From assembly GCA_030248295.1 (NCBI GenBank), contig JASANH010001727.1, positions 372,001-436,000 of the forward strand: 64,000 bases of DNA, written 5' to 3'. The stretch comes from Mesodorylaimus sp. YZB2_4. Taxonomy: Eukaryota; Nematoda; Enoplea; Dorylaimida; Dorylaimidae. Position 1 is the first letter of the stretch. Every line of letters starts with the position of its first letter. The position numbers and the translations under genes were made by a program. The notes beneath the pieces were generated by a model. The model made no database searches, had not been told where the DNA came from, and saw only the letters and a list, made by a program, of their open reading frames with translations. Below, piece by piece: positions 17,871-25,122 of the stretch.

Positions 17871-18194
17871 AAATCGCAACATCTTCGTACTCAAGAATCA
17901 GCAACTGGAGCAGTGGTAATACTTATTTCCATATGACCATTGGAAATTTGATGAAAGGAAATCGATTGTTGTGTGAGACTTCTTTGGTAAGTTCGAAAAT
18001 TGGAAAATTGGTGAGATGTGGGTTTCTGAGAAACCTTGGTAGCATTACAATGCTTTTGGGATGCTGTGAGTAACACCAGGATAAAGAAATTTGGTTTTCA
18101 GGGCTACAAAATGGACGATTTGCTAACTTCTTACATCAGCTTGATGTTAGCCACTGTGAATCGGGAACCAGATGTCTACGATGGCAACTTTTAA
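17871..18194 (+). pseudogene. Promoterless copy of the last two myosin VII exons
   Basis: Exon 32 copy (17871-17986) encodes [20 protein letters not shown] onward and keeps its GTAAGT donor. Exon 33 copy (18102-18194) encodes [15 protein letters not shown] to DVYDGNF-stop. Both match the end of the complete myosin VII gene at 25007-25126 and 24799-24891. The duplication breakpoint falls inside exon 32, after about four codons, so no start, promoter or upstream exon is present. An in-frame open stretch to the left is probably chance. Confidence 0.93.
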
Positions 18195-19235
18195 ACTTTT
18201 TGTAAATCCTTTCGTACTTTTTATGCACTGCACTTCAGTGCACATGCACTTCGCAGATATTGGTCAGTGAATTCAGAATGCCAGGCGTGTGCAATATTAG
18301 TACACACCATATTTTATGATGATATTTATTGTTTTTTTGTTTGAAACGTCTTTGTCACAGATAACATGGTTACATAGATAATGTATCCGTCAGGTGTCTG
18401 GTGATATTCCGTGAGTTGCGATTTATTTTGTTTTATTATTTTTCCAATTTTTATGGTTTTAAGTAATCGGAGTGGTGTAAAATTGTTGGTGTGGTGTGCT
18501 GTGGCATACTTTCCAAATGTTTTCGAGGAAGTGTCTTTCAGACTTCGAAAAAGCTTCGCTACTGTAGCTTTTTGGACATTCCGTTTCAAAACCACATGGA
18601 ATATACATTTTTGACAGCAGAAGACAATGAATGCGGGAACTAGCTCTAGGAAACTAGAAAGCAGCCCAGCCACTCTCCTGAGGAAAACCTTCGAGCTGCT
18701 TTAAGATTGCGCGCGCAGTGCACAAGCAAACGAGGCTCACATGAACTTCACGTTTCCATTCAGGAAGTAAGGAACTACAGCGTGCCTTGCCCACGAAACG
18801 TTAGATTTCCTTCGAAAAAGTTCGACCCAAGTGCCAAAAGGACTCTAGTCATGCTTTGCTAAACTCATACATATCTCGCATAAGAAACGTAACAGCCAGC
18901 TAGCTTACACCGACTTAAACATTCTATAACAAGATTTCTCTGATAGCCATCGGTTTACCGCTTGACGTTGACTCCTAAAGAACTGACATGGACTCTGGCA
19001 GCCCTGGCATGTCCTCAAAACGAGTCTGTCCATGCCAGTAGTGTACCTAGTGCGGGCAAACATACAACACGGACTTTGCCCCGCCCGCCCGCCTTGTTGC
19101 ATGGGCGGACCGCGTTCGTATGGCCACGCGGCAGTGCGTCACAGAGCCGACGTCAATCGATACGCGCTCGCTTCGCAACCAGTCGGCCCGATGTTTCACG
19201 GTCGTATATAGTGTGGCAGTCGAACACTGTTCGGT

Positions 19236-22986: not shown

Positions 22987-25122
22987 CGGAACACCAATCG
23001 TAAGCACAGCAGCGTCCATGTCCAAAACACAATAATGCCTCAGATACTGGTTCAGATTGCCCTGAAATTGCCCCCAAAGCCCAGCTTCTAGAAAAAAACG
23101 AAAGGGCTCTCTTTAAAGAACTGTTTTCTAGAAACCCAACAATATTTTAGCCAAACCACGTTGGTAGATACGACTAAGGGACCTTGACTAAGGTATTGTC
23201 GATGAGTAGATCGCTCTTTTGCCAGGTTGGAAGAAACCTTTTATTTTTTCCTCTCGTATCCTAATCCCTTCTTGCGGTCTTGTACCTATTTGACGACCAT
23301 TCTGCCCTTCTTGTCGTGTTTGCCTTTTTTAACAAAACTTCCACTACCTGGTAGAAGGATATCGGAGATGAAATTCTACCCTTTTGAGGAATGAGAATGT
23401 CATCATTTTTACCAGTCGGAGGTACCTACAGTGCACCAAACTGAAACACCAAGGAGGAGGCACCAAACTGAAACATCACCGTACAGAGCACGATATCACT
23501 TCGAATTATTCAGCCTGCTGTACGCGGAATTGACACCAGTGCACCAGCGGCACCAGCCCGCGTAGAGGATTTAGATTTGGGAGTAAGCTTCCCCCTAAGG
23601 GGAATGGGCCGATCCTGGAGGTACTGCAATACCAGGCCAACCCGCGGCGAGGGCGGAGCAAGCCCCAACACCTCACCAAGGTTCCAAAAATCAGGTTAAT
23701 CTCAAAGTGACCACGTGGGCCACATATCAGAGATTAAGCTGATAAGAACAGATACTACACTTTGATCTTAGCCTAAAGGCCGAGAAGCGATACCGAACAA
23801 TCTTCGACTGCCACACTATATACGACCGTGAAACATCGGGCCGACTGGTTGCGAAGCGAGCGCGTATCGATTGACGTCGGCTCTGTGACGCACTGCCGCG
23901 TGGCCATACGAACGCGGTCCGCCCATGCAACAAGGCGGGCGGGCGGGGCAAAGTCCGTGTTGCCCGCACTAGGTACACTACTGGCATGGACAGACTCGTT
24001 TTGAGGACATGCCAGGGCTGCCAGAGTCCATGTCAGTTCTTTAGGAGTCAACGTCAAGCGGTTAACCGATGGCTATCAGAGAAATCTGGTTATAGAATGT
24101 TCAAGTCGATGTAAGCTAGCTGGCTGTTACGTTTCTTATGCGAGATATGTATGAGTTTAGCAAAGCATGACTAGAGTCCTTTTGGCACTTGGGTCGAACT
24201 TTTTCGAAGGAAATCTAACGTTTCGTGGGCAAGGCACGCTGTAGTTCCTTACTTCCTGAATGTAAACGTGAAGTTCATGTGAGCCTCGTTTGCTTGTGCA
24301 CTGCGCGCGCAATCTTAAAGCAGCTCGAAGGTTTTCCTCAGGAGAGTGGCTGGGCTGCTTTCTAGTTTCCTAGAGCTAGTTCCCGCATTCATTGTCTTCT
24401 TCTGTCAAAAATGTATATTCCATGTGGTTTCATGAAAAATTTCCATTCCATGAAAGACACTTCCTCGAAAACATTTGGAAAGTATGCCACAGCACACCAC
24501 ACCAAAAATTTTACACCACTCTGATTACTTAAAACCATAAAAATTGGAAAAATAATAAAACAAAATAAATCGCAACTTACGGAATATCACCAGACACCTA
24601 ACGGATACATTATCTATGTAACCATGTTATCTGTGACAAAGACGTTTCAAACAAAAAAACAATAAATATCATCATAAAATATGGTGTGTACTAATATTGC
24701 ACACGCCTGGCATTCTGAATTCACTGACCAATATCTGCGAAAAGTGCATGTGCACTGAAGTGCAGTGCATAAAAAGTACGAAAGGATTTACAAAAAGTTT
24801 AAAAGTTGCCATCGTAGACATCTGGTTCCCGATTCACAGTGGCTAACATCAAGCTGATGTAAGAAGTTAGCAAATCGTCCATTTTGTAGCCCTGAAAACC
24901 AAATTTCTTTATCCTGGTGTTACTCACAGCATCCCTAAAGCATTGTGATGCTACCAAGGTTTCTCAGAAACCCACATCTCACCAATTTTCCAATTTTTGA
25001 ACTTACCAAAGAAGTCTCACACAACAATCGATTTCCTTTCATCAAATTTCCAATGGTCATATGGAAATAAGTATTACCACTGCTCCAGTTGCTGATTCTT
25101 GTGTACGGATATGTTACGATTA
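22987..25122 (-). repeat. Right arm of large inverted duplication
   Basis: This is the reverse-complement partner of 17871-20030. It contains the authentic last exons of the complete myosin VII gene and a U2 snRNA gene, both on the minus strand. It also carries a 25-base tandem duplication at about 23430-23475 (repeated CACCAAACTGAAACA) missing from the left arm. Confidence 0.95.
23603..23791 (-). ncRNA. U2: U2 spliceosomal snRNA, right-arm copy
   Basis: This is the minus-strand copy of the U2 gene at 19236-19424, with the same 5' end, branch-site segment GTGTAGTATC, Sm region and stem III/IV core. It has one base difference just before GGGGCTTGCTCC. It starts about 1 kb downstream of the myosin VII stop codon and converges on the left-arm copy across the spacer. 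The shared upstream bases include GTATATAGTGTGGCAGTCGA, so the proximal promoter was duplicated too. Confidence 0.97.

Follow-up and report, generated by a model that had tools for sequence, protein, structure and literature searches.

The locus

The window, meaning the whole 64-kb stretch of DNA analysed here, lies within contig C42 of a nematode assembly of 145,146,385 bases in 1,067 contigs; this assembly is the scope of the genome searches described below. It is assigned to a nematode by 133 matches to the cuticle collagen N-domain (PF01484, which marks nematodes), with all 137 candidates scored. A search for insect-type cuticle domains (PF00379, which marks arthropods) gave no match, which is weak evidence because its controls gave none either; SL1 likewise gave no match, with silent controls and 50 of 31,302 candidates scored. 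When the window is compared with itself by blastn, one inverted pair dominates: positions 17872-20033 match 25121-22984 on the minus strand (E=0.0). A first-pass annotation of this DNA had placed an inverted duplication here, and the self-comparison bears out its arms to within 4 bp.

The left arm (17872-20033, plus strand) and the right arm (22984-25121, minus strand) are thus defined by blastn and alignment. Each, at about 2.1 kb, contains a complete U2 snRNA gene, preceded by the two final exons of myosin VII and roughly 1 kb of 3' flank. Between the arms lies a spacer of 2,950 bp (20034-22983), about 60% of which is made of dispersed repeats, as judged by matches in the assembly. For reasons that are given below, the right arm is taken to be the ancestral copy and the left arm the derived one.

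The myosin VII gene and its truncated copy

The right arm is continuous with a myosin VII gene, as the first-pass annotation had held. This continuity is read from the order of domain pieces. Pfam and PDB matches of open reading frame (ORF) pieces carry the gene over 24799-39432 on the minus strand, as far as pieces were found, with its 5' limit approximate. Along the minus strand from 39.4 kb to the right arm, Pfam finds Myosin_VII_N, the motor (in two pieces), MyTH4 with RA, MyTH4 again, FERM_M, and a PTB-like end. The motor piece has myosin VIIa as its best PDB match. Two of the ten myosin pieces (30542-30895 and 32533-32868) are without a Pfam match. IQ and FERM_C1_MyoVII also match among the 70 ORF pieces that were scanned, in a scan that gives no positions.

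The gene ends in the right arm with a penultimate exon at 25007-25126 (minus strand; Pfam IRS/PTB at 36.3 bits, PDB myosin VIIa at 61.7 bits) and a last exon, placed by alignment at 24799-24891 (minus strand), that closes with a TAA stop. The left arm holds counterparts of both on the plus strand. Its copy of the last exon (18102-18194) has the same TAA stop, and 18101-18192 shows 0 mismatches in 92 aligned sites. Its copy of the penultimate exon (17872-17986) is truncated. If the acceptor is the TTTTAG before 25126, homology begins about 5 bp inside that exon, in agreement with the earlier description of the left arm as a truncated myosin fragment.

The left penultimate exon scores below the right one, with 27 bits for Pfam IRS/PTB and 52.8 bits for PDB myosin VIIa, although the PDB query frames are unequal (63 and 140 residues) and the bit scores are therefore only roughly comparable. 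The lower myosin VIIa score comes mainly from four substitutions at the edge of the arm; over the rest of the penultimate exon, 0 of 91 sites differ between the arms. The left exons are probably a partial and dead copy. A chimeric new gene at the left was also considered, since a 140-residue open frame runs from 17651 into the left-arm intron. It was set aside; the part of that frame lying 5' of the arm found no match of its own in a Pfam and PDB search of the frame.

Divergence of the arms

How alike are the two arms? A MAFFT alignment of 17896-20031 gives 25 substitutions in 2,053 aligned sites, or 1.22%, as 16 transitions and 9 transversions. This count omits 18541-18594 and 19575-19580, two short stretches that are without alignment between the arms. 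The first is a replaced block, where the opposite arm has a shorter and unlike stretch; near the second, the arms differ in length by 25 bp. Four further indels add 25 bases in total. The blastn identity, with gap columns counted in, is 93.6% over 2,188 columns.

The two ends of the arms behave differently. The outermost 24 bp (17872-17895) contain 4 mismatches, while the inner end shows no decay, with zero substitutions from 19746 to 20031. The arms are young, yet short of almost identical. The phrase "nearly identical" that had been applied to them is somewhat too strong.

Most of this sequence is found only here. The myosin end together with the upstream flank of U2 (17872-19190) matches the two arms only in the whole assembly, with both of two candidates scored; for this part, then, neither arm is represented by an additional, allelic contig. 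The arm part 3' of U2 has a full-length match only at the two arms, among the best 40 of 58 candidates scored. Its 38 further matches are to a ~130-bp dispersed repeat, which self-blastn and the assembly search place at 19853-19985 in the left arm and which is present in the right arm as well.

The spacer contains a dispersed repeat of about 1.45 kb (20121-21574), whose left end bears a palindrome of 44 bp and whose longer pieces elsewhere in the assembly are 72-86% alike. A second dispersed repeat, of 390 bp (22302-22689), has at least 28 other copies in the assembly, 84-91% alike. About 1 kb to the left of the left arm, a further dispersed repeat, roughly 440 bp long, occupies 16420-16859; at least 39 other copies, among the best 40 of 2,947 candidates, are 82-89% identical to it. 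Elsewhere in the assembly, the counterparts of the spacer and of the 1.9 kb that flank the arm on the left are dispersed repeats, apart from a single stretch of 143 bp (91%), with the best 40 of 331 and the best 40 of 2,947 candidates scored, respectively.

The U2 gene pair and its family

Both U2 genes are intact by the standard of Rfam RF00004. The left gene (19236-19428, plus strand) scores 167.1 bits and the right gene (23599-23791, minus strand) 167.6 bits, against a gathering score of 46, and both cover positions 1-192 of 192. At the gathering threshold, the Rfam scan of the window found nothing besides these two. They are convergent, as had been noted earlier; their 3' ends face each other with 4,170 bp between.

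The two RNAs differ at a single site, nt 125, which is C in the left gene and T in the right. The first-pass annotation had put this one difference before stem III. That it is a single base is correct, but nt 125 folds at the foot of the apical hairpin, inside the stem that we take to be stem III. Changing T to C here strengthens the predicted fold of the segment, from -22.0 to -23.9 kcal/mol; another copy of the family gives -24.3.

The assembly has 17 DNA matches to U2. Eight of these, the window pair among them, cover nt 1-193 at 98-100%; one covers nt 1-187 at 98%, two are 93% alike, and six are partial or diverged. The window RNA is 95-99.5% identical to that of seven other copies. All seven carry T at nt 125, as does the right gene; all seven carry C at nt 117, where both window copies have T. 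Just 3' of the RNA, at +196, the base in the right arm matches six of the seven. The arms also differ at -10 and -8, two sites that leave polarity unsettled. We infer that the window genes are part of a set of eight or nine nearly identical copies.

Two truncated U2 copies (L009:5032-5344 and L012:4543-4855; G000 C174 and C303) deserve separate mention. They start at about nt 65 of U2. In front of that point they share 172 bp of sequence foreign to U2 (99% alike), beyond which their flanks are different. The 172-bp sequence has no third occurrence among the best 40 of 91 candidates. It may represent the tail end of an element with U2 as its insertion target; a duplication shared by both copies is just as likely. 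Utopia elements do insert into U2, and in Phytophthora the U2 sequence resumes at nt 39 (PMC4640811), a site different from the one near nt 65 in the C174 and C303 copies.

A promoter element shared with other snRNA genes

At -58 of U2, both arms carry the same 20-base element, ACCAGTCGGCCCGATGTTTC, which resembles a PSE of snRNA promoters (left, 19178-19197, plus strand; right, 23830-23849, minus strand). Within the window, its pattern is found at the two U2 genes only. Elsewhere, it is found at -58 or -57 in six of the seven other near-identical U2 copies, at two of five U1 loci, and at five of eight U5 loci; since the pattern was composed after the sequences were seen, these counts describe and do not test. 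The remaining near-identical U2 copy and both of the 93% copies are without a match. The other three U1 and three U5 loci have, by eye, recognisable relatives of the element at about the same position.

Because both window genes retain the -58 element that is seen before other U2, U1 and U5 genes, both are probably functional, and both would be expected to be transcribed. Their promoters are nevertheless unlike those of the rest of the family. From -75 to -12, the arms are 100% identical to each other and 71-76% identical to the seven other copies, which are 89-99% alike among themselves. A promoter this divergent, alongside an RNA that is 95-99.5% identical, indicates that the window pair forms a separate lineage.

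Origin of the inverted pair

The likely origin of this arrangement, in our judgment, is one small inverted duplication, which would have yielded the left arm, two U2 genes that both appear intact, and the myosin fragment at the left. Here, about 2.1 kb containing the last two myosin VII exons, the 3' flank and the adjoining U2 gene would have been copied, and the copy set about 3 kb away in inverted orientation. The mechanism would be a template switch during replication or repair, rather than transposition, because visual inspection of the arm junctions revealed no target-site duplication and because substitutions cluster at the outer junction.

The left arm would be the copy. The right arm runs into the myosin VII gene, its penultimate exon scores better, and its bases at nt 125 (seven of seven) and +196 (six of seven) are those of the other U2 copies. 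The proposed polarity is based on these three lines: the continuity of the gene, the profile scores and the comparison with the remaining U2 copies.

When might this have happened? The mutation rate of C. elegans is 2.7e-9 per site and generation. At that rate, a divergence of 1.2% corresponds to about 2.3 million generations, a value good to an order of magnitude at most. The earlier description of the event as recent is compatible with this divergence.

A single recent duplication accounts for everything except the diverged 24-bp edge, and the edge can be explained by error-prone synthesis at the junction. This edge is, however, also a sign that could point to a different history, in which the inverted duplication is older and the arms have been kept alike by gene conversion, one of the two options that the first-pass annotation had offered. 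Inverted arms are able to pair. Conversion that halts before the end of a homology could leave just such an edge, where 4 of 24 sites differ, against 25 of 2,053 inside (P=2e-4). Exons and U2, when pooled, show a weak trend in the same direction (1 of 376 sites, against 24 of 1,677 noncoding; P=0.068).

The rest of the alignment does not follow. The substitutions are evenly placed, and the longest run free of them, 334 bp, is unremarkable under random placement (P=0.29). The U2 gene alone (1 of 193 sites, against 24 of 1,677 in other noncoding sequence; P=0.51) shows no excess similarity over its flanks. No decay is seen at the inner end of the arm, and the diverged edge amounts to a single local cluster, which error-prone synthesis at a junction would explain equally well. 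With substitutions evenly placed and U2 no more alike than its flanks, gene conversion is unnecessary, and we consider it unlikely.

A different reading is an assembly error. Sequence from the other haplotype, covering the end of myosin and U2, would have been joined wrongly in inverted order, and 1.2% is a plausible allelic difference. This becomes quite improbable in view of the left end of the homology, which is a degenerate 24-bp edge and not a clean cut. Further, the flank between myosin and U2 is absent elsewhere in the assembly, and the spacer and the 1.9 kb at the left match elsewhere, among the candidates scored, as dispersed repeats and the one 143-bp stretch. Inverted arms around a repeat-rich spacer also recall a mobile element with terminal inverted repeats. 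Such an element has next to no credence here: most of the arm sequence is restricted, among the candidates scored, to this locus, the arms hold gene sequence, and the junctions are without a target-site duplication that can be seen by eye.

The inverted duplication, if it occurred as outlined, is instructive. It illustrates a route by which dispersed snRNA families may grow, where U2 gains an apparently functional copy through a short duplication. The same short duplication would be useless to the neighbouring protein gene. In addition, the promoter elements of the two resulting U2 genes are identical, and a single base suffices to distinguish the genes.

A possible hairpin RNA

The geometry invites a further and more speculative proposal, that the locus is a newborn hairpin-RNA gene making siRNAs against the 3' end of myosin VII. 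Neither AATAAA nor ATTAAA occurs between the myosin stop and U2 in either arm, and the first AATAAA on the myosin strand lies past U2, about 1.55 kb after the stop. Some myosin transcripts may therefore read through the right U2 gene, the spacer and the left arm, and then fold as a duplex of about 2 kb, whose predicted perfect runs reach 240 bp. The variant signals AATATA and AATGAA, however, lie about 0.4 kb after the stop, which means that read-through is not required.

RNA-dependent RNA polymerases are described for C. elegans, and are assumed to be present in this nematode. By analogy with C. elegans, where recent duplicates are siRNA targets (PMC3213143), the hairpin could trigger the production of siRNAs directed at the 3' end of myosin VII. 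We regard the proposal as a long shot. If it held, the locus would show siRNAs coming into being at the 3' end of a nematode gene.

Other features of the window

The window contains other repeated structures. A second and older inverted pair (44982-45467 and 46611-47110) is 80% alike over about 500 bp, and a diverged direct duplication (48800-49993 and 51146-52241) is about 74-78% alike in several blocks. At 5570-6520, short self-matches, both direct and inverted, are densely packed; this sequence is probably low-complexity or satellite-like. The 70 ORF pieces also match a Hint module, the Sec16 mid-region, a ricin-type lectin and the Ras family (positions not given), implying that other genes are present in the window.

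Comparison with known systems

Dispersed multicopy snRNA gene families that share a promoter element are a known class. The window U2 genes resemble it in having eight full-length copies at 98-100%, one 98% copy that ends at nt 187, and diverged or partial ones, and in having an upstream element that is also found before U1 and U5. They depart from it in the divergent promoter of the pair. No second inverted pair of complete U2 genes was found inside any one of 11 other U2-bearing stretches; these stretches (84,801 bases) were chosen for their U2 matches, and among the inverted matches listed within them the longest reaches 484 bp, at 89%. Of the papers listed by literature searches on inverted snRNA pairs and concerted evolution, none describes such a pair, judged by titles and the openings of abstracts.

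The hairpin-RNA loci of Drosophila offer a second comparison. One new hpRNA there arose inside a noncoding locus that already existed, in its 3' region (PMC10317233). Like those loci, the window has arms that are inverted and homologous to a gene. Here, in contrast, the arms contain U2 genes, the phylum is different, and a hairpin transcript and its siRNAs would be hypothetical.

The closest parallel is found in C. elegans, where newly formed duplicates frequently lie next to each other in inverted orientation (PMC2728529) and are frequently partial (PMC3449122). That class and the window pair have in common adjacent loci, inversion, a gene that is partly copied, low divergence, and a small span, with a median of 1.4 kb there and 2.1 kb here. 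Unlike the class, the piece in the window carries a complete U2 gene, so that one product is probably functional and the protein part is not. The window pair thus fits a known class of young partial inverted duplicates, to which a whole U2 gene, carried as a passenger, is the addition.
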